A DNA stretch of 64,000 nucleotides from Spirochaetales bacterium (GTDB lineage Bacteria; Spirochaetota; Spirochaetia; UBA9216), in contig JAEKNX010000005.1 of NCBI GenBank assembly GCA_016839055.1, positions 1-64,000 of the forward strand, written 5' to 3'. A program made the translations under genes and the position numbers. This document shows, in pieces, positions 4,007-55,244 of the stretch; position 1 is the stretch's first letter, and the number at the start of each line of letters is the position of its first letter. Under the pieces are notes generated by a model that was not told where the DNA came from, made no database searches, and worked only from the letters and a program-made list of their open reading frames with translations.

Positions 4007-4138
4007 CGGCAATTCTGAATTTTACTGCAATTCCCCCGAATGTCGGCCCTTGCTGACCCCAGCGGCGGCATACAAAGGCAGACAAATTTAGAACTACTGA
4101 GTTTAGCCGATTTTCCTTTACAGCGGGAATTACTTCTG
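4007..4138 (-). mobile_element. Copy A of the dispersed foldable repeat (internally deleted)
   Basis: This copy lies in the opposite orientation to the other two, at 30434-30699 and 50139-50406. Its left part (aattctgaattttactgcaa, then ttcccccgaatgtcggccct) is nearly identical to the reverse complement of 50355-50406. The sequence then jumps at a run of C to agcggcggcatacaaaggca, which matches the reverse complement of 50274-50293. About 60 bases of the apical stem are therefore missing. Inverted ends (aattctgaatttt and aaatttagaactactga) are kept at 4011-4100. Beyond 4100 the similarity weakens to fragments such as gcgggaatta. Confidence 0.8.
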
Positions 4139-30433: not shown

Positions 30434-30699
30434 CAGTAATTCCTAATTAGACCTCCGAAAGCGGTTGAATAATTATTTATATGCAAGGAGATTATTTTAT
30501 TCCTCTTTGCCTTATTTTTATTAGCTCTAATCTCGCTTTCGGACAGTCTGTACTTCTGAATTTGGCTGCCTGTGTATGCCTACGCTGCGGGGTCTCGTAA
30601 CTGTGGAAAACATCTGCGTCTTCGCAGCAGTTTTTCATGGGTACGGGGTGCAGCAAGAGCCGGATGATTATATAATTGCAGTCAAATTTAGAATTGCTG
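30434..30699 (+). mobile_element. Copy B of the dispersed foldable repeat (266 bp)
   Basis: The ends are cagtaattcctaattagac (30434) and the inverted gtcaaatttagaattgctg (30681-30699). It matches copy C (50139-50406) in order and near-equal length. Shared blocks are gacctccgaaagcggttgaa, cctctttgcc, ttctgaatttggctgcctgt and ttgcagtcaaa. A nested hairpin lies at 30584-30655 (gctgc, cgta, aaaac, ctgcg with their complements around tctt). An outer hairpin tccgaaagc/gctttcgga lies in the left part. No clear target duplication flanks this copy. It fills the gap between a membrane-protein gene and the YgjP-like gene and encodes nothing. Confidence 0.85.
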
Positions 30700-44498: not shown

Positions 44499-44522
44499 CG
44501 GCCGGATTAGAAAGTCCGGCCG
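44499..44522. terminator. Hairpin at the junction of the convergent TPR and mutL genes
   Basis: A perfect 8-bp GC-rich stem, cggccgga with tccggccg, and an 8-base loop. It lies across the end of mutL and beyond the TPR stop. No T run follows on either strand. Confidence 0.45.
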
Positions 44523-46300
44523 AACATTCGATAAAGCTCGTCACGTGATATCAATTGGATCACAGGCCGTCCGTGCGGGCAGCGAGGATTGTCCAGCTCG
44601 AGAATCTCTGTCGTAAGTTCTATGGCACTTATCTCATCTATCCTGTCTCCGTCCTTAATCGCGGATCTGCAGGAAATCATCGCATACAGCCTCTTCTTGA
44701 GCTCCTCTGCGTCTGTAAGCTTGTTTCTGAGGAATAGTATGATATCATCCTCGATGCCGCTGCAGACTGCCGGCATCGCATTAAGCATCCAGTCGCAGTC
44801 TCCTGCTTTTTCGAGTTCGAATCCCATTTTCAGGTATTCATCAATCTGTGTTTCGAGCACAGCTTGCTCGTCTTTTTCGATCGAAAAACGGAGGGGAACA
44901 AGCAGGTCTTGAACTTCAGGGTGTTTGTTGCTGAGTCTGTTGAAAATCAGTCTTTCATGGGCCGCGTGCTGATCGACTATCAGAAGCTCATCATCATGCT
45001 CAAAAACCAGAAACAGCTTGAAGAGCTGCCCGAGGTAGACAAGCCTCGCGGCCGGATCCGGTCTGCTGCGAACTTCAAGAATTGCTGCCGGAGCCGGCTC
45101 TGCCGCTATTTCACGGCTCAGCTCGGAAAGGCTTTCTCTCCTGAAGATACTCTTGTCAGCAATACTCCGGGGGCCTGCCGGCATCACCCGTGAAGAGGGT
45201 GATGGCCCCGGTGCTCCGCCGGCGCCGGATGCGCTACTGTCAAATCCGAAGGCGGGCTGGCTGTAGATACTGCGGGCATTGGCCCTGAAGCTGTTGCGGC
45301 CGCCGAGGTGATTACTTACAGTCTCGGTAACCATGTGGTGGATTTCCGGAAGGTTCCTGAACTTTACCTCACGCTTTGCCGGATGGATGTTGAAATCTAT
45401 ATGTTGAGGCGGAATTTGAAGAAAAAGGAAACATACAGGATGACAACCGCCCGGCATATAGTTCGAATAGGCGTAATCAACCGCCTGTACGAGGGAATAA
45501 TCATTGATCCTGCGGTTATTGATAAAGATCTGGATGTATTTTCGGTCTTTCCTGTATAGAGAGGGACTTCCGGCGGCGCAGGTGATTCTCAGCCCGCCAT
45601 CGTCGGCCGAGAAGCTTTGAATAAATTCTTTCTGAAAAAGTCCGCTGTATGCCGAATGTACCCTCGTTATAAGGTCGGAGGCCGGAAGAAAGAGTTTTAG
45701 CTTGCCGTCATTGAAGTAACGGAAATTGATTGACAGCTGAGGAAGGGTTTTTTCGATAAACATGGACCTGCACTGGGCCGATTCGGCGCCTGCGCTCTTG
45801 AGGAAATTTTTTCGGCCTGGCATTGAATAGAAGAGATCCCTTACGCTGATGACGGTGCCTTTGCCGCCCTGGTATTCGCTTATGTCACGCAGCTTTCCGT
45901 CATATATCTCCAGTTTGTTTGCCGGAAGGGCATCAGAGGTTGAGCTTATTATCCGCAGCTTTGAGCAGGCGGCAATACTCGAGAGGGCCTCTCCCCTGAA
46001 GCCAAGGGTTGTTGTGCTGTAGATGTCTTCAAAGTCGTGAATCTTGCTTGTCGCGTGAGGAAGGAAACATTTGCGAAGATTTTCAGCGTCCATCCCGCTG
46101 CCGTTATCGATTATCCGAATTTCCTCCATTCCGCCCTTTTCGACGTACAGGGATATATCGGTTGAATCGGCATCAATGGAGTTATCGAGAATTTCCCGCA
46201 CTACTGCCTGCGGCCGGTCAATTACTTCGCCGGCGGCAATGCGGCGGGCAACAGAATCCCGGAGAATGTTAATTCTCCGGGATTGAATATTGTCAGTCAT
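44507..46300 (-). CDS. mutL: DNA mismatch repair protein MutL (endonuclease type)
   Basis: The 597 residues have the N-terminal GHKL ATPase (motifs EVIDRPQAVVREILDNSIDA, IIDNGSGMDAENL, TTLGFRGEALSSIA) and a C-terminal dimerisation/nuclease domain. Motifs LLIVDQHAAHERLIF, SCRSAIKDGD and CPHGRPVIQL indicate the endonuclease-active type, as expected where mutH is absent. A Ser/Ala/Pro linker joins the domains (about 350-420). It starts 9 bases after the stop of the FecR-barrel gene, without a ribosome site, so it is probably read by coupling. Confidence 0.95.
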   Translation of the reverse strand: MTDNIQSRRINILRDSVARRIAAGEVIDRPQAVVREILDNSIDADSTDISLYVEKGGMEEIRIIDNGSGMDAENLRKCFLPHATSKIHDFEDIYSTTTLGFRGEALSSIAACSKLRIISSTSDALPANKLEIYDGKLRDISEYQGGKGTVISVRDLFYSMPGRKNFLKSAGAESAQCRSMFIEKTLPQLSINFRYFNDGKLKLFLPASDLITRVHSAYSGLFQKEFIQSFSADDGGLRITCAAGSPSLYRKDRKYIQIFINNRRINDYSLVQAVDYAYSNYMPGGCHPVCFLFLQIPPQHIDFNIHPAKREVKFRNLPEIHHMVTETVSNHLGGRNSFRANARSIYSQPAFGFDSSASGAGGAPGPSPSSRVMPAGPRSIADKSIFRRESLSELSREIAAEPAPAAILEVRSRPDPAARLVYLGQLFKLFLVFEHDDELLIVDQHAAHERLIFNRLSNKHPEVQDLLVPLRFSIEKDEQAVLETQIDEYLKMGFELEKAGDCDWMLNAMPAVCSGIEDDIILFLRNKLTDAEELKKRLYAMISCRSAIKDGDRIDEISAIELTTEILELDNPRCPHGRPVIQLISRDELYRMFGRTF

Positions 46301-46309
46301 AAAATTAGT

Positions 46310-48655
46310 TTAAAAATGTATTCTTGTATCGATTGTGAAAGCATAGTAGATATCCGCAACACCGTCTGTGAAGATGATATTTCCGTTCTCGTCCCTGCTA
46401 AGAGCTGTCGCAAACTGCATTGCTATATCAAGGAAGTCGTCGAAGGGATAAACAAGTTCACCGGTGAAGACTGTATTGTCGTCAAACAGCTGGAAGCTAG
46501 TCGTTCCGGCCACGGCGTCCGCTATGCTGCCCACGAGGTTGTCACGGCTGTATGAAATAGAACCGTAGAGACCGACTACTGGAATTATGTCAGGCATAAG
46601 GTAGAGGGCAATGTGAAAATTATCTTCGGCTTCAAAGCTTACTGCGGTGCCGTCAAATACCCATGGCCAGAGATAACCGCCTTTGAGAGTCACGGCATCG
46701 AAGAAGTTGGCCGAAAGCTCTCCGTAGACACCCATTGTTATATCCTGATAGGCGGCGAGGCCCGGTGCTGCTGTATAGGTAGTCAGCTCATTGAAGTATT
46801 CGGTTTTGTTTACGAGGTATCCGCTGTTGTAGAATGATGACCTGAACAGTCCCTTACTCAGCCTATACTCGAGCCGGTAGTCGATGGTGAAGAAATCTCC
46901 GTAAACACCTGCCGAGACGCCGAAGTTATTAAGGGCCGTCATGAAGTCAGGCTCTGCTGAATTGTATATAGTGTCCCAATGCCAACCTGTTTCATCAAAG
47001 AGGGTCAGGGCCGCGAGGTCTGTAAACAGGGTCATACCGAGGAGTTCTATTGGCAGGCCTAGGTCGATGGCGCCGTTTAATATCATGGTATTCCAGAGGA
47101 CAGTGGTGTCCTCAAGTTCAGAGTCAGGATTTATATCGGTAATGGCAGAAAGACCGATTCCAAGCGGAAAATCCGGACCGAAAGGCATATATACAAAGCG
47201 TCCGCCGAAGATTGTCGGATCGGCTGCATCGTCTAGAACAGCTTCGAGTCCGAAATAATCAAAATTGAAACCGGTATTTATACCGACTTTTCTGATTGCC
47301 GGAAACTCGTTGTTGTTGGCGAAATTGTACATTAGAATACCGTGGCCGATACTCATGTTATCGAGATTTCCGAATTTAAGGTAGAAATCGTCGCCGTTAT
47401 CGCCCCACTGAATGTATTTAATCTTGAGAAAAAGATCACTCATTATATCAAGGAGGATATTTCCGAGTTCAATCTGGTCGGTTCCGAATGACCACTCATT
47501 ATTGCCTGCCGGCTTATACCAGGTTGCAGGATCAAAAAGATTGTCCTGATAGATTACAGGCAGATAGAGACCCATCTGAAGATCTCCTATGGCAAACTCC
47601 GGCTGAATGACCGCCTTTGCATAAGTTGTGCCGTCTACCGTAACCGAACCGATTTCAAAGGCGAGCATATCCGCTATTCCTTCAAAAAACTCATCGAAGG
47701 GGCCGGGGACAGACGGTTCCGCGGCTGCTTCCTCGGTATCAGGCTTTTTATCGGTCGAGGGGATGCCTCTGCCGGTTATGTTGGCGGCCGCCGAGCCCTG
47801 ACCTGAAGCCTTAGGCTGCGCCGGGCTGTCCTTCGTTCCGGTATCCGCTGTTGCCTTGCCGTCTGAATCAGCTGCGGTATCATTATCAGCTGTGTCCCCT
47901 CCGGCAGGTTCATCAGCAGGTGTGTCTTCTCCGGCAGGTTCGTCAGCAGGTGTGTCTTCGTCAGCAGGTTCACCAGCAGGTTCAGGGCTAACAGTATGGC
48001 CCGGGACCTGAGCAGGATCTGCGCCTGTGAAGTCCATGCCGCTGAATATTGACGCGAGGCTCTGCGCCGTGGCCGTAGTTGCGGCGAAGGTGTCGGCAAA
48101 GACGTCGGCAATCTGGCCGGAGATAACATTGATGGTTTCCCCGCTTAACAGGCTTGAGAAGGAAACTGCTCCGTCTAAAACCGCGAGAACTCCGATTGAG
48201 TCAATTACAAGGTCGGTTCCTCGGACTCCGCAGACGGCCGATTGGGTAATAATCGAATAATTCTCATACCCGAGCCCTGCACGGGCGGCTATGACTCTGA
48301 GTTTGCCGTTGAACAATGAAAAATCATTCGACTCATCGGCAGCCCTCTGGAAGGCCTCAATCTGGAAAACCGAATTTTCTGAAATCTTCAGGATTGAGCC
48401 GTTCGGTTCCAGCTGAATTTCCGCTGTTGTATTATAGGTCTTTATCGTAGCTCCTGGAAAGAGCTCCATGCCGGTAAAAACCTCGCCGACATAGCCTCCG
48501 GAACTGTCAAAAACCTCAAGTTCAAAATCGTCGTCGTAATAAACGAGAAAGGCTGTAGGATTGGTTTTGTCCTGTGCTGTTACCGGAAAAACAAGTACCG
48601 TCAGCAGAGCAAGGACAGTTAAAACTGTTATAAAAAATCTTCTATTTTCATTCAT
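46310..48655 (-). CDS. FecR-domain protein fused to an outer-membrane barrel
   Basis: A 781-residue protein: signal peptide (about 1-28), a FecR-type beta domain (about 35-190: GMELFPGATIKTYNTTAEIQ, ISENSVFQIEAF, AVCGVRGTDLVIDS), a Pro/Ala/Glu/Asp-rich linker (about 215-330) with repeated EDTPADEPAG, then a beta-rich domain (about 335-781) ending in TIDTRIHF, a typical outer-membrane C-terminus. The barrel part is a paralogue of the next gene upstream (shared KIKYI, GDxxYxKFG, FGGR elements). It precedes mutL by 9 bases. Start behind AGGAGG. Confidence 0.82.
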   Translation of the reverse strand: MNENRRFFITVLTVLALLTVLVFPVTAQDKTNPTAFLVYYDDDFELEVFDSSGGYVGEVFTGMELFPGATIKTYNTTAEIQLEPNGSILKISENSVFQIEAFQRAADESNDFSLFNGKLRVIAARAGLGYENYSIITQSAVCGVRGTDLVIDSIGVLAVLDGAVSFSSLLSGETINVISGQIADVFADTFAATTATAQSLASIFSGMDFTGADPAQVPGHTVSPEPAGEPADEDTPADEPAGEDTPADEPAGGDTADNDTAADSDGKATADTGTKDSPAQPKASGQGSAAANITGRGIPSTDKKPDTEEAAAEPSVPGPFDEFFEGIADMLAFEIGSVTVDGTTYAKAVIQPEFAIGDLQMGLYLPVIYQDNLFDPATWYKPAGNNEWSFGTDQIELGNILLDIMSDLFLKIKYIQWGDNGDDFYLKFGNLDNMSIGHGILMYNFANNNEFPAIRKVGINTGFNFDYFGLEAVLDDAADPTIFGGRFVYMPFGPDFPLGIGLSAITDINPDSELEDTTVLWNTMILNGAIDLGLPIELLGMTLFTDLAALTLFDETGWHWDTIYNSAEPDFMTALNNFGVSAGVYGDFFTIDYRLEYRLSKGLFRSSFYNSGYLVNKTEYFNELTTYTAAPGLAAYQDITMGVYGELSANFFDAVTLKGGYLWPWVFDGTAVSFEAEDNFHIALYLMPDIIPVVGLYGSISYSRDNLVGSIADAVAGTTSFQLFDDNTVFTGELVYPFDDFLDIAMQFATALSRDENGNIIFTDGVADIYYAFTIDTRIHF

Positions 48656-48670
48656 TGTTAACCTCCTTTC

Positions 48671-50071
48671 TTAGAAAAGCTTGAGTGAACAGCTGAGGGT
48701 TGAATTAATGTCAAAGTCTTCCCAGCTCAAGCCCGCCGTACCATCTGAAATGTACATCAGATCATAGGACAGGGTGATAACCGCGGCTCCGGCGTTATAG
48801 TTAATTGCCATATTAATTAATGCGTTTTCAGCACTGATAAGATCGGCTATATCTGTTATGAATTTCTTGTCATAGGACGCGGATAGTGAAAAATCAGGAA
48901 TAAGTCCTTCTTCGACCAGGAACATTGCATAGACATGAGGATACTCAACAAAACTGTTGTTTTCTATTCCATCAGTGGGTATAGCTGCAAAAGGACCGTC
49001 GAGAGTGGCCGTGAACACTAGCTGATCATCGAGCAGTGAGACTCCGGTTGTTCCAAGCCATGAGATGCTGCCCGGAATAACAATACTCGTTCCCGAATTG
49101 AGAACAGCGTATTCTATTCCCCTGTATAGATCATAGGAATTGTTGAAATATGATGGAATAAAATTGTCTCCGAGGAATCTAAGCTGAAAGACATAGGGAA
49201 TTATGCCTATGAGTCTTCCTCCGAATCCAACCATGGAACCGGAATTTATACCCTGGAAGGCAAGGTCTCCAAACACTGCAAGGGAAGCGAAATCTAAATT
49301 GATTATAGGCAGCACAAGGTCTGTGCCGTATACTAATACCATTTCGGCATCGGTTACACCCGTGATTGTCGAATCGAAATAATCGGTTCTATAATCCGCA
49401 TCGATGTCAAATACTCCGGTAATTCCCCACTCGAGATTTTCAATAATCGGGATGGCCGACCATAGAAGCGGTCTTGCATACAGCCGCCCTCCGAAAACGT
49501 CGAAATGTGCAAGGTTTCCGACAAATGTCTCAATACCAAGATAAGGAAAATTAAAAATTTGTCCATCGAGGTCGAAATTAAGGCCCATTATCTTTTCATC
49601 AGGCTGGAATAGAGTATTTGAGTACTGGTTTACAATAAATCCTGTTCCCAGTGTCGCATCTTCTATCTGGCCGAATTTTGCGTATAAAGCATCGCCCTTA
49701 TACCCGTAGCGGATATATTTAATCTTGGGAAGATACAGGTCAAGGAAGGTCTGCCCATTCATGGGAATCCAGTCTTCTTCTCTTATGTCAAAACTGCTGC
49801 CGTCATTTGTCTCAGGTGAAACAAATCTGTAATGAAGAACCAGATCCAGACCGATTCCGAAATCGCCGAGTGCAAGATCGGGACTTAGAGCAAGTGTCTG
49901 ATAGGTTTCAGATTCTGTAGATCCGTCAACAGGATCAAAAGTTTCAACGCCAAGAAGAAGTCCTAGGCCGAAATCGGCGCCGGGTGCCTCTGAATCCTGA
50001 GCGGAAACCGACATTACAGGAACAAACAGGCTGAGCGCTATCATCAGTATCATAATTTTGTTTGGTCTCAT
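48671..50071 (-). CDS. Outer-membrane beta-barrel protein
   Basis: A 466-residue protein with a signal peptide (about 1-24). The beta strands alternate and the C-terminus STLSCSLKLF is aromatic. The sequence YLPKIKYIRYGYKGDALYAK and the following FGQIEDATLGTGF correspond to the barrel half of the FecR-fusion gene downstream, so the two are paralogues: one plain and one with a FecR module. The start follows AAGGAG. It probably forms an operon with the fusion gene (15-base gap). No channel specificity can be inferred. Confidence 0.8.
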   Translation of the reverse strand: MRPNKIMILMIALSLFVPVMSVSAQDSEAPGADFGLGLLLGVETFDPVDGSTESETYQTLALSPDLALGDFGIGLDLVLHYRFVSPETNDGSSFDIREEDWIPMNGQTFLDLYLPKIKYIRYGYKGDALYAKFGQIEDATLGTGFIVNQYSNTLFQPDEKIMGLNFDLDGQIFNFPYLGIETFVGNLAHFDVFGGRLYARPLLWSAIPIIENLEWGITGVFDIDADYRTDYFDSTITGVTDAEMVLVYGTDLVLPIINLDFASLAVFGDLAFQGINSGSMVGFGGRLIGIIPYVFQLRFLGDNFIPSYFNNSYDLYRGIEYAVLNSGTSIVIPGSISWLGTTGVSLLDDQLVFTATLDGPFAAIPTDGIENNSFVEYPHVYAMFLVEEGLIPDFSLSASYDKKFITDIADLISAENALINMAINYNAGAAVITLSYDLMYISDGTAGLSWEDFDINSTLSCSLKLF

Positions 50072-50129
50072 AGCTTAATCTCCTTATAGTCAAGTATATA
50101 CCTTTGCATCTTAATACTCAATTTGATTA

Positions 50130-50138
50130 GTAATATTT
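50130..50138. repeat. Left copy of a 9-bp target duplication
   Basis: GTAATATTT immediately before repeat copy C. The identical GTAATATTT follows its right end at 50407-50415. Confidence 0.85.
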
Positions 50139-50406
50139 CAGCAATTCTAATTTTGACCTCCGGAAGCCCCTGAATAATTTTTAAAATGTCTAAATATCTA
50201 AATTTTTCCTCTTTGCCACCTGTTGAAAAGTTCTAATTCCTGCTTCCGGGACATCAGTAGTTCTGAATTTGGCTGCCTTTGTATGCCGCCGCTGGGGGCC
50301 CCGGTGCCGTCAGAAATAATTGAGGTCTTCCGAACCCTAGTCTGATGGTGTCGGGGTCAGCAAGGGCCGACATTCGGGGGAATTGCAGTCAAATTCAGAA
50401 TTGCTG
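50139..50406 (+). mobile_element. Copy C of the dispersed foldable repeat (268 bp, with target duplication)
   Basis: The left end cagcaattctaattttgac and right end gtcaaattcagaattgctg are imperfect inverted repeats. A second forward copy of the end (cagtagttctgaatttggc) starts at 50255. The left third carries the hairpin tccggaagc/gcttccggg. The right part (50255-50406) folds into a long interrupted stem: gctg, ccccg and ccgtcaga with tctgatgg, cgggg and cagc. It is flanked by the perfect 9-bp repeat GTAATATTT. It sits between two minus-strand envelope genes, touches the stop codon of the large surface-protein gene, and encodes nothing. Confidence 0.9.
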
Positions 50407-50415
50407 GTAATATTT
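50407..50415. repeat. Right copy of the 9-bp target duplication
   Basis: GTAATATTT, identical to 50130-50138. Its last base is part of the stop codon of the downstream minus-strand gene. Confidence 0.85.
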
Positions 50416-53400
50416 TAGTAGAAGATACTCGCGCTTACACCGGCGCTGAATCCGAAGAGGCTTATGTTGTTTTCCGACAGAGTGTTAAACTTATAGCCTA
50501 TACTTCCGAAGGCCGAGAGGGTAAGGGTCTGAGGGATGATGAGGGAGGTTACATGCTTAAGCTCGGTCCTGAAGACAGTATCAAATCCGATTAGAATTTT
50601 TTCTTCGTTTGTGAAAATTTGAAGGGCTTCTTCCTCTTCGGTGAACAGAGGAAGATCAAGCGGAACCTCCGGACTGAAATTCCAGATATAGAGCAGGTTC
50701 TCAGTAAATGACCAGAGAGAATCGGCCTTGTTTACGGGGATATAAAGGTCAGTATCCAGAGAGAGAGTCTGATCTTCAAAACCGAAAATCGAAATACCGC
50801 CCTCGATAAAGTATTCCTGAGTCAGAACGGCGTCGGTAAGCCTGGAAAGAACAGCATCAACCGACCAGCTGAACTCATCCGAATAATAAAAATCGAAGGC
50901 GGAGTAGGCGCCTGCCGTGCCGAAAAGATTTCTCGCGGTTGTTCTGCAGCTGAGTGTGAAATTAAGCTCATCTTCAGTCTCGGTGAAATCCTGGACAAGG
51001 TCCCTGCCGAGTTCAATACTCAGCGTATGTGGAAGAAAAAGGTCTATAATTCTGCTGCTGTAATCTCTTGAAAGGCTGAAGTACAGGGAGTTGCCGAAGA
51101 CAGCTTCATCTATTCCGGCTGTCAGGCAGTCGGTTGAAAAGAGACTTACTGTGCTGTCGGAGAATAACTCGGCGACCGGTATTGAACTGTAGAGATACTG
51201 CCGCCCTGCAAGCAGAGAGAAAAGTCCGGCAAGATCTTCTGCAAAGGACACGGGAAGCGAAACCGGGGCGGAGTCGAAGAACTCGGCACTTCGGACGTAG
51301 CCTATTTCCATCGAAAACTCAGAGTTATCCAGCTGGAAATTAACTGGAAGGCCAAGCTTGAGTTCGGCCGAATCAAAATATCTGCTGTCAGTTATTCCGG
51401 CGCCAAGGCTCAGATTCGCCTTTATTCCCAAGGGCTTGGTGGCCAGGACCGGGCTAAGCTTGAGGCTTGTTTTTCTCATCCTGAGGCTGCTGTTATCGAA
51501 GACTCCGGCAAGCACGGTAGCTGAAGCCCAGCCGCTGAAGTAATTGTCCCAGGTGCCGCTGTAACCGGTGCCGGAGAGCAGCATTTCACAGCTTGAACTG
51601 ATACTGAAGGGGGAGAAGGCTGCGGAGAGCTCCGAGTTCCATTGCTGGGTGAGCAGTCCGGTGTTCAAGGTTGCGCTGAAGCCCGCTAGTCTTCCGGAAA
51701 CCGGTCCGGCATTTATATTTATATTATCAGTCTTTGTGAAGTCTCCCCCCCCGGCATTATCGGTTCTGAATGAGTCGGAGATGGACAGGTAACTGCCGAT
51801 CAGAGGTATTTTTATATCATGAGCGGCCGAGAGCCGGCTGTTTCCGGTAATATTCTCCCAGGAGATGTCGAGGGCGGCGTCTGTTCCGAGGATTCTTGTT
51901 TTAACTCCCGTATAAAGATCAAGATCTGATACCAGCTGATCCTCATCAACCGCCGTGTAAGACAAGCTCGAGATTAAGCTGGACGCGCCTATTATTTCGA
52001 GCGCACCTGCACTAAGAAGGGGTGTTCCTGAGGCCATGCTGAAGTCCGCTGTTACTCCGGCTGTAGTATTGAGGGCAGGATTGAGGAGGTGAATCTCATC
52101 TATATACAGAATTCCGGAAGAAGCATCATTAACCTCAATTTCGAGTCTTATGAGGCTGCCGGCGGAGGTGTCAACAGACAGCAGGGCTGCTGGTGAGAGG
52201 ATGTCGTCGATGTAGATCTCATTATCCGACGGTTTTATTTCAATTTTCTGCCAGGAGGAAGTTTCTGAGAACGGTATGGAGGCTGCTATGCCGCTGCCGC
52301 CGGTATCTGTCATCCTGAAATTAAGGATGGAGGTGTCTGTCGGGCTGCTGCCTAGTTCTGGAACGTGAATATAAAACACAATGCTGCCGTAATCATTATA
52401 TTTTATCGGAGAGAGCACTGAATAGAGCCTCCACGGGGCTGCCCAGTCTATTCTCATTACCTGATTATCATCGGCCGAATTCTTGTAGGGGTAGATCAAT
52501 GGCGACGAGCTTTTCTCTTCTATAGCTGTAAGAGATTCTTCAATTTCTGAAAAATTCGGCTCAGTCAGCCCCGCTTCGCTGTCCGGAAAGAGGGACTTGC
52601 CCTCAAAGCGCAGATCGTCTATCAGGATACGTCCCGTCTTTTCGCCTGCGGCGGTGCTCACCGCGGTAATTCGGACAAACTCCGCGTTCTTAAGCCTTGC
52701 CCTGTCTGACTCGGATGTGCCGCTGAAATAAAGTCGAACCCGGCTCCAGGCCGAGCCGGGAATCACGAGGTCGGCGTCGTAGGCATTGTCTGACGCATCT
52801 GTCGTGAAGACTGCGACGGCATCGGACTTGTCGATATCAATGAATCCGTTATTATTAATATCCTCGGTGTCCAGGATATTGTTTCCGCCTCCTCTGCTGT
52901 CACCACCTATGAGTGTTCCCGCCACTGTATTTTTATCATTGAAGGTGAAACCGCTAGAATACTGTCCCGTTTCAGAGTCAAGAACTCCGTCAGCATCGAG
53001 ATCTTCGGAGACGGCGCCTATTTCAAGATAGAATTCCACTCCGCTGAGATCCCCCTCTGATTTACAGTCGAAGGATACCGAATTGTAGCCGCTGAGGTCG
53101 GTATTAGCCGAACCCCGGGAAATAGGAATCTGTACGCCGGCCCATGACCCCGAAGACGGGAGCACCCAGTCCATGACAAGGACCTCGCCTGACTTGCCGT
53201 CCTTCTGGGCCGCGGTTGTATAGGGGCCTGCCTTGTATTTATCGGCGGCCGTTGACTCATCAGGGGAGTAGATCATCGATTCATCAATGACGTCATTATA
53301 ATCCTGAAGTCCGTCGGATAAAGCCGATGTGTTGATGCGGTAATCCTTATAGTAGAGAAGTCCGCGGTCTCCGGCCAGGAGGCCGATATAGGAGGACGGG

Positions 53401-55172
53401 CTGGCAGGAAAGATTAAATTAGAATTAATATTGACACCCAGGCTGTCGTCGGACATGTTTTTCAGAACCAGGATTCCGGCTGAGTTGTCGCTCTGGATTT
53501 TGAGCCCTGCCGTGATTCCGGCTGTAATCTGCAGGTCCCCATCCTTCGCGCTGTTGTCATAATTAAAGGATGCCGAGGTGTTCAGATAGCCGGAGTTTTC
53601 CTCGGTTGGAAGAGCGTATGTTCCGGAGAGTACATTCCATCTGAATCCGGCGTTAAAGGCGGCCGACAGGCCTTCTGTTATGCTGAAGCGGTTTGCCGAG
53701 GCAAAGAGTAGATCTCCTCCTGTTTCTCCGCTGTTTGCCTTCCTGTAGATTATCTCTATCCGGTCTTCATTTCCGGGTTCGGTGTCAAAGGTGACTGTAT
53801 TTCCGCTTAGATCCCAGTTGAAAGTCTCCCGTCCGTTTATGTAGATTCGCACGGTTCCCGGAACCGGATCGTCGAGGGTGTAGGAAGTTGACTCCTCCCT
53901 TATTACGGTGATGAGTTTTAGGTAATTATTGTCTGAAGCCTTCAAGGCCTCGGGTCCGTACACCGAGCGGAGGTCGGATGTAAGGCTTTCCAGCGGATAG
54001 AGGCTGTTTCCGCCGCCGGCCGGGTGAAGCAAGATAATTCCCGCATCAGCCATCGGTGAGACGTTTAGTTCTATTCCGCCTGCAAGGGAACTCGAAGACG
54101 GAGCAAGGTATACTCTGGTCTTCCAGCTGTCCTCAGGCAGAACCGTATTTATGTTGTAAGCGGCTGCCGATTCAAAGGGAGAAAACTCGCCTGCGTTCGT
54201 AAGGACAATATCACCCTTGTCTGAAAGGCAGAGCATCGGCCCTGCCGATGTTGTCTTCTGGAAATCAGAAAGGATGTGACCGGAGATATAATCATTATCG
54301 ACTGCCGCCGTCCAGTCAAAATCGGCCGAGTAGGCCAGGAGGATGCCCTCAGGCTTTTTTTTCAGATATAACAATCCTGTTATCGGAGAATAGGAATAAG
54401 CATCGGCGGAGAGTTTTTTAAAACTGCGGACGATGGTTCCGGAGGAAAGGGTAACAGCCGGTGAAGTGCTGCCCGTACTCTCAATATAAAAAGCGGCAGA
54501 GGCGGGTGCCCCCGGCAGGTAGTAAAATCTCTCTCGCAGATAATCAGACACCTCAAGTTCTATCTCCGTGACTGAATCTGTGCCTATATACACCTTTGTA
54601 TGCTCCTTGTCGGGATCAAACCTCAGCAGCAGCTCATGAGATGAGCCGCCTCCGTTGAAGGAGGAATAGAAACCGAAAGAGGACGGACCGCCGTCGGGGA
54701 CGTAGAAGAAATCAGAAGTTTCGGCATCCTCTGAGAGGTTAATACCCATATTTCCGGCCGAGATAGTTTGCAGGAATTCACCCGGACGGCCCTGGTAACC
54801 GAGCCTGAAGGTTGAGTCTTCTAATTCGTCAGTAAATGCCGCTTCAAAAAGGTATCTGTCGAAGATTGAAAGTGAGGCTGTGAAATCAGGGGTCTGAAAA
54901 AAAGAAAAACCGGATTCCATTCCCGGATAGGCTATCGTTGTATCAAATCCGGCCTCCGGCGACCAGCCGAAACCTGTTGAAGCCCATATTTCGGCATTCC
55001 AGCTTCCTGTGAGAAACAGCATTACATCTTCAGTTCCGAGGGACGCTTTAACGAAAGAGTCTTGTGCCTCCTCTGCAGGCAGAAGAGGAGGCTCATCGGC
55101 TGAAGTCAGCAGGGGGAAAAAAGTTAACAACGCCATACTTAAGGTAAGGATTTTTTTTGTAAAATCAGCCAT
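50415..55172 (-). CDS. Very large exported surface/outer-membrane protein
   Basis: About 1585 residues with a signal peptide (about 1-26, ending LLTSA). Residues about 430-480 contain PVPGTVRIYINGRETFNWDL. Two galactose-binding/CBM-like beta domains follow (about 650-860 and 900-1085), the first with GVEFYLEIGAVSEDLDADGV and DTEDINNNGFIDID. The last ~450 residues are amphipathic strands ending in SASIFY, a barrel-type C-terminus. The YINGRE and 'LEIGAVSED...D.DGV' phrases recall Bacteroidota SprA, the type 9 secretion barrel, but I cannot confirm homology. The ATG at 55172 was preferred over a TTG at 55181. No ribosome site is visible. Confidence 0.8.
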   Translation of the reverse strand: MADFTKKILTLSMALLTFFPLLTSADEPPLLPAEEAQDSFVKASLGTEDVMLFLTGSWNAEIWASTGFGWSPEAGFDTTIAYPGMESGFSFFQTPDFTASLSIFDRYLFEAAFTDELEDSTFRLGYQGRPGEFLQTISAGNMGINLSEDAETSDFFYVPDGGPSSFGFYSSFNGGGSSHELLLRFDPDKEHTKVYIGTDSVTEIELEVSDYLRERFYYLPGAPASAAFYIESTGSTSPAVTLSSGTIVRSFKKLSADAYSYSPITGLLYLKKKPEGILLAYSADFDWTAAVDNDYISGHILSDFQKTTSAGPMLCLSDKGDIVLTNAGEFSPFESAAAYNINTVLPEDSWKTRVYLAPSSSSLAGGIELNVSPMADAGIILLHPAGGGNSLYPLESLTSDLRSVYGPEALKASDNNYLKLITVIREESTSYTLDDPVPGTVRIYINGRETFNWDLSGNTVTFDTEPGNEDRIEIIYRKANSGETGGDLLFASANRFSITEGLSAAFNAGFRWNVLSGTYALPTEENSGYLNTSASFNYDNSAKDGDLQITAGITAGLKIQSDNSAGILVLKNMSDDSLGVNINSNLIFPASPSSYIGLLAGDRGLLYYKDYRINTSALSDGLQDYNDVIDESMIYSPDESTAADKYKAGPYTTAAQKDGKSGEVLVMDWVLPSSGSWAGVQIPISRGSANTDLSGYNSVSFDCKSEGDLSGVEFYLEIGAVSEDLDADGVLDSETGQYSSGFTFNDKNTVAGTLIGGDSRGGGNNILDTEDINNNGFIDIDKSDAVAVFTTDASDNAYDADLVIPGSAWSRVRLYFSGTSESDRARLKNAEFVRITAVSTAAGEKTGRILIDDLRFEGKSLFPDSEAGLTEPNFSEIEESLTAIEEKSSSPLIYPYKNSADDNQVMRIDWAAPWRLYSVLSPIKYNDYGSIVFYIHVPELGSSPTDTSILNFRMTDTGGSGIAASIPFSETSSWQKIEIKPSDNEIYIDDILSPAALLSVDTSAGSLIRLEIEVNDASSGILYIDEIHLLNPALNTTAGVTADFSMASGTPLLSAGALEIIGASSLISSLSYTAVDEDQLVSDLDLYTGVKTRILGTDAALDISWENITGNSRLSAAHDIKIPLIGSYLSISDSFRTDNAGGGDFTKTDNININAGPVSGRLAGFSATLNTGLLTQQWNSELSAAFSPFSISSSCEMLLSGTGYSGTWDNYFSGWASATVLAGVFDNSSLRMRKTSLKLSPVLATKPLGIKANLSLGAGITDSRYFDSAELKLGLPVNFQLDNSEFSMEIGYVRSAEFFDSAPVSLPVSFAEDLAGLFSLLAGRQYLYSSIPVAELFSDSTVSLFSTDCLTAGIDEAVFGNSLYFSLSRDYSSRIIDLFLPHTLSIELGRDLVQDFTETEDELNFTLSCRTTARNLFGTAGAYSAFDFYYSDEFSWSVDAVLSRLTDAVLTQEYFIEGGISIFGFEDQTLSLDTDLYIPVNKADSLWSFTENLLYIWNFSPEVPLDLPLFTEEEEALQIFTNEEKILIGFDTVFRTELKHVTSLIIPQTLTLSAFGSIGYKFNTLSENNISLFGFSAGVSASIFY

Positions 55173-55244
55173 TATGGCCAAGTATAACGCGATTATCGGG
55201 ATTTTGTCTTATCAAAGTTGATTTTTTAGCAATATCGGACGAAA

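Follow-up and report, generated by a model that had tools for sequence, protein, structure and literature searches.

The window, as we call the whole 64,000-nucleotide stretch of spirochaete DNA analysed here, carries at 44507-55181 a tandem of genes for MutL, a FecR-domain protein, and two proteins of 466 and 1588 aa without a Pfam match. Between the last two lies a 268-bp element in which no ORF of at least 80 aa was found. Its 19-bp ends are complementary at 17 of 19 positions (CAGCAATTCTAATTTTGAC at 50139-50157 against the inverse of CAGCAATTCTGAATTTGAC at 50388-50406) and it is flanked by a perfect 9-bp duplication, GTAATATTT; the inverted ends and the duplication had been described by an earlier, sequence-only reading. 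Not part of that reading is a further end-like repeat within the element, at 50255-50276, in opposite orientation to the right end. The sequence-only reading also had the right duplicate touching the stop codon of a surface protein of 1585 residues; the contact stands, as a one-base overlap, whereas the ORF is 1588 aa long from its TTG start. The features concerned are as follows.

4007..4099, minus strand: degenerate copy of the element, reduced to a right arm that has lost the hairpin tip, from sequence comparison
30434..30699, plus strand: diverged second copy of subfamily B (identity 70%), whose target duplication can no longer be made out
50093..50121, minus strand: promoter-like site TTGAGT-17-TATACT of the 466-aa gene downstream, supported only by conservation, the scan count being at chance level
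50130..50138, unstranded: left copy of the 9-bp target-site duplication, GTAATATTT, from sequence and copy-flank comparison
50139..50406, plus strand: MITE of subfamily A, 268 bp, non-coding, from 34 full-length genome copies and the congener empty site
50139..50157, plus strand: left terminal inverted repeat, 19 bp, CAGCAATTCTAATTTTGAC, the same end as in IS elements of other phyla
50159..50250, plus strand: left arm, a hairpin closed by CCGGAAGC/GCUUCCGG, from the fold and a three-species comparison
50255..50276, plus strand: internal end-like repeat CAGTAGTTCTGAATTTGGCTGC, which pairs with the right end and is the exact left boundary of a 152-bp short form
50255..50406, plus strand: right arm, a 152-nt long hairpin, from covariation and a plus-strand G-U excess
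50281..50374, plus strand: hairpin core (model R2), common to congener hairpins without IS ends, from the core covariance model
50385..50406, minus strand: right terminal inverted repeat, from end comparison and pattern scan
50407..50415, unstranded: right copy of the 9-bp target-site duplication, from sequence
50415-55181, minus strand: 1588-aa ORF with TTG start, its stop codon (50415-50417) overlapping the last base of the right duplicate

Copies of the element and its empty site

The genome is a 5.0-Mb draft in 43 contigs, and copies were taken as full length at 260-272 bp. A copy search of this genome, one of the checks proposed by the sequence-only reading, returned 34 full-length copies and a number of partial ones; a phage collection gave no match to the element. 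Twenty-nine of the full-length copies belong to subfamily A (84-100% identity to the window copy), four to B and one to D (both 70-73%). The 9-bp duplication is perfect in 10 of the 34 and agrees at 8 of 9 positions in 8 more, against none of 1122 combinations at 8 or more of 9 when left and right flanks of different copies were paired, and duplication lengths other than 9 showed no excess. The duplications are 74% A+T, compared with 63% in the adjoining flanks. Divergence within subfamily A averages 10% and no pair is closer than 3.3%, so that the burst looks old and not recent. The end pattern itself, at up to three mismatches, matches six times in the window (0.07 expected); at up to two mismatches it marks 120 sites in the genome, against one for the reversed pattern and 0-10 in relatives, the last counted with a slightly narrower pattern.

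Shorter forms are also present. In variants of 152 bp the left boundary coincides exactly with the inner repeat, and two of them show duplications of 7/9 and 6/9; a 138-bp variant (L054) ends at a cryptic CTG and has a perfect duplicate, TCAAGGTTT; and some variant copies are without the hairpin tip. One copy (L033/L261, G000:C17:207311-207569) is a chimera of an A-type left half and a B-type right half, which suggests recombination between subfamilies. Among the partial copies several are right-end-only fragments. Truncation of the 5' end as in retroelements, which these might bring to mind, was set aside, as left-end fragments exist too and the full-length copies are consistent with a DDE mechanism. 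All 34 full-length copies are intergenic. The absence of insertions within genes fits purging and A+T-rich targets, and is not by itself proof of a host function.

An element-free locus was sought in relatives, again as had been proposed, and was found with the same gene order in three congeners. The 466-aa neighbour has orthologues at 64-67% identity in G001, G003 and G004, in each of which it is preceded by an orthologue of the 1588-aa protein, so keeping the order of the window. Their spacers measure 58-59 bp, compared with 66 bp for the window spacer minus the element and one duplicate; GTAATATTT itself is not visible in them, their target being too diverged. The spacer of G002 is longer and different. 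The promoter-like site at 50093..50121 lies about 17 bp from the insertion and is intact, and its TATACT part is conserved in the congener spacers. Ends, duplication, copies and empty site are direct observations, and on these grounds the segment 50139-50406 is a MITE: short and non-coding with inverted ends, duplicating 9 bp, dispersed in many copies and having empty sites.

Shared ends and a candidate transposase

The remaining hallmark of a MITE, ends in common with an autonomous element, was found in other genomes. An exact-end scan of GTDB species genomes gave 85 stretches, some single matches among them being chance, from cyanobacteria, Desulfobacter and relatives, Chloroflexota, Kiritimatiellae, Spirochaetes, Gammaproteobacteria and others. 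Many of these stretches bound local MITEs whose 9-bp duplications are perfect and whose interiors are unrelated, as in Chloroflexota, Desulfobacter and Kiritimatiellae. A bacterial MAG, GL140_5 (L069, L074, L075, L095 and others), holds many similar 133-bp MITEs that share these ends and likewise have perfect 9-bp duplications, in what looks like a burst of its own. A 19-bp end common to MITEs and IS elements in so many phyla provides a handle for finding non-autonomous elements that have gone unrecognised.

One stretch belongs to an IS of 2029 bp from a Kiritimatiellae genome (L129), with both ends identical to the pattern and a perfect 9-bp duplication; this IS has a reading frame for a DDE transposase and also encodes a DUF6788 protein. 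The latter lies within the IS at 2356-2697, at the 5' end of the transposase and in another frame, and is possibly an IS accessory protein. CAGCAATT ends together with perfect 9-bp duplications are seen in the IS elements L157, L158 (in Calothrix), L163 and L161; plasmid-borne relatives with this combination come from Anabaena, Calothrix, Nostoc and Saccharobesus. Fischerella carries a 1570-bp element with matching ends and a perfect 9-bp duplication, and a copy in Gloeothece is annotated ISNCY. DDE_Tnp_1 was detected in 5/7 members of the group and DDE_Tnp_1_assoc in 4/7 (E up to 0.01), a domain pair that we take to point to ISAs1; the L129 transposase falls below the Pfam cut-off. The ISAs1 group makes duplications of 8-10 bp and has ends beginning CAGGG. 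The candidate partner group duplicates 9 bp and its ends begin CAGCAATT, not CAGGG. A search of solved structures with the transposase profile gave nothing credible, a literature search for the end sequence gave only unrelated papers among the matches listed, and one for ISNCY together with DUF6788 gave none.

An IS with matching 19-bp ends, for which the sequence-only reading had proposed a search, exists with 9-bp duplications in other genomes, and none was found in this one. Here a DDE_Tnp_1 search returned nothing, nor did transposase searches with single proteins and profiles, and a draft assembly may drop multi-copy IS elements. The congener G004 keeps a transposase relic of 37 aa at 62% identity. 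The MITE resembles the IS elements in the 19-bp ends and nowhere else, and so none of the IS elements examined can have given rise to it by simple internal deletion. The proposal that the segment is MITE-like is nonetheless borne out by its genome copies, the congener empty site and the IS elements elsewhere with matching ends.

Structure of the right hairpin

In the predicted plus-strand fold the right half of the element forms one hairpin and the left part another, and the minus strand folds less well; the same holds for 30 of the 34 copies. Across three species the sequence of the left arm is conserved, including its inner motif CCTCTTTGCC. The right arm covaries: of its 48 pairs 15 show double changes and 95.7% of cells are paired, compared with 21-45% in sliding controls and none of 500 shuffles as good, and in the core across three species 20 of 25 pairs show double changes (again 0/500 shuffles), all of these counts being on related copies, so that pairs are not independent events and shuffles ignore relatedness. 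Much of the covariation between A and B may reflect one branch. No Rfam family matched above its gathering score over the element or the hairpins that lack IS ends. Integron attC sites were considered and rejected, the RYYYAAC/GTTRRRY motif being absent from the hairpin foot in 4/5 hairpins and present as one isolated motif in the fifth.

The pairing is also strand-biased. In a strand-neutral alignment that scores G-U and A-C alike, the plus strand has 38 G-U to 11 A-C over four subfamily sequences (A 13:5, B 10:2, C of congener G004 6:2, D 9:2), and adding up eight congener copies, whose orientation was read from the left arm or the MITE end, gives 79:15. Together with the core covariation, this preference indicates that one folded strand was probably under selection. 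The likeliest folded form is RNA, single-stranded DNA, in which G-T also pairs, being the alternative. Mutations private to single copies behave differently: they break pairs freely and, at 16 G-U to 10 A-C events in the right arm, show no clear preference, which argues that single copies are apparently not under structural selection now. Since single copies decay neutrally and covariation lies at the level of subfamilies, we infer that the structure was needed by the amplifying lineage and not by the host.

The core of the hairpin is found outside the MITE as well. Of 248 genomes of the class, three were matched by a covariance model of the family, and these are of the same genus. The model of the core across three species gave 41 matches in this genome (G000), 24 in G001 and 14 in G004, a few of them second-strand matches; there was no core match in seven other relatives, nor, under stricter filters, in 295 further genomes of the phylum. 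Several cores in G001 and G004 are without IS ends and stand on basal stems of their own, their orientation being taken from sequence motifs and from the model that found them. One locus (L279, 2100-2549, in G001:C51) holds three imperfect tandem cores with a common leader (TATAAATACT and AATCCGGC) and no IS ends; the gene beside this array reads as argR-like. In some congener cores (L271, L273, L266, L267) a second small hairpin is inserted at the tip of the first.

Cores with their own feet mean that the core is not merely palindromic IS end sequence. It is possible, though less likely than not, that the right hairpin is an undescribed structured RNA or single-stranded DNA motif, here seen in three species of one genus, which would spread in the MITE and by a route independent of the ends, and whose fold would be maintained by selection acting on the mobile lineage and not on the host. 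It is likewise possible, if short of probable, that the core is a mobile or structured element in its own right around which IS ends came to lie, with the MITE as its vehicle, a view compatible with the MITE reading. The cores with different, well-paired basal stems and the tandem array speak for it, whereas every match inspected in this genome sits in a MITE context.

Could the biased pairing instead have arisen with no selection on a folded strand, as a side effect of the way palindromes form and of strand bias in mutation? MITEs commonly form foldbacks and the copies share ancestry, yet palindrome correction would yield Watson-Crick pairs and not a G-U excess over A-C on one strand, and rare changes lack the bias that would be needed (23 C>T per 64 C, 31 G>A per 65 G). 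We regard this account as unlikely. Quite improbable, too, is a regulatory or structural RNA of the host, such as an mRNA leader, stabiliser or processing site, spread by transposition and kept for its function. Its strong conserved structure, the intergenic position of all copies and a right-hand gene transcribed away in 26/34 would suit such a role. However, the orientation in tandem contexts is 10:5 and not significant, the upstream excess occurs on both sides (left 21/34) as expected from longer upstream spacers, the free disruption of pairs by private mutations is contrary to it, and the scan gave no terminator-like and no promoter-like site inside the element. A chance inverted repeat beside a chance 9-bp duplication can be dismissed, refuted as it is by the end-pattern scans, the copies, the flank controls and the empty site.

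Proposed explanation and known systems

Returning to the MITE, we consider it highly probable that it was moved in trans by a DDE transposase from an IS since lost, and that its folded plus strand was needed by the amplifying lineage. The transposase would recognise the end CAGCAATTCTRAATTTGRC and cut with a 9-bp stagger, leaving the duplication of GTAATATTT, with the non-coding element as its passenger. It would belong to the widely scattered IS group with DDE_Tnp_1 and DDE_Tnp_1_assoc, ISAs1-like and with one member annotated ISNCY, in which the pairing of such ends with a transposase is directly observed in other genomes; this lineage presumably once carried such an IS and then apparently lost it. 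The interior can be read as a two-arm structure closed by the ends, the left foot of the 152-nt right hairpin being an internal end copy. Covariation and strand bias, themselves direct observations, suggest that this hairpin was kept in shape on the plus strand across subfamilies and three species, and the amplifying lineage may thus have relied on a single strand in folded form, for which an RNA transcript is the likeliest candidate. As to what the hairpin does, our best guess is a role in protecting or silencing read-through transcripts of the element, or else in helping the element to move.

Among known systems the nearest are the ISAs1-like/ISNCY elements with CAGCAATT ends, whose 19-bp ends are identical (L129) or similar and whose 9-bp duplications are perfect; they encode a DDE transposase, whereas the MITE is non-coding and resembles them nowhere but at the ends. 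IS605 makes no target duplication, in contrast to the element described here with its inverted ends and 9-bp duplication. The IS605-type stem loops near Borrelia lipoprotein genes (PMC2775950) are likewise stem loops of mobile elements in a spirochaete. REP/BIME sequences mobilised by RAYT are hairpins of 20-40 nt with a GTAG or CGTC tag (PMC3733652). The hairpin here is about 150 nt, a size that argues against REP/BIME. BOX and RUP repeats of pneumococcus are from another host and presumably have other ends. Compared by description, they are likewise dispersed short intergenic repeats with conserved folds (PMC3049150). QMITE2 of Coxiella, with 7-9 bp repeats and 23-29 bp ends (PMC10969869), and Nezha of cyanobacteria, for which mobilisation by ISNpu3-like elements was proposed (PMC3049150), resemble the present MITE in being small and non-coding, with inverted ends, direct repeats and a strong predicted fold. 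What sets the present structure apart from these two, Nezha being compared by description, is that it is backed by covariation and strand bias and is partly found outside the MITE. The usual view of MITEs is that they are passive foldbacks; in this one the covariation, together with G-U pairing biased to one side, points to a particular folded strand that mattered to the lineage while it amplified.
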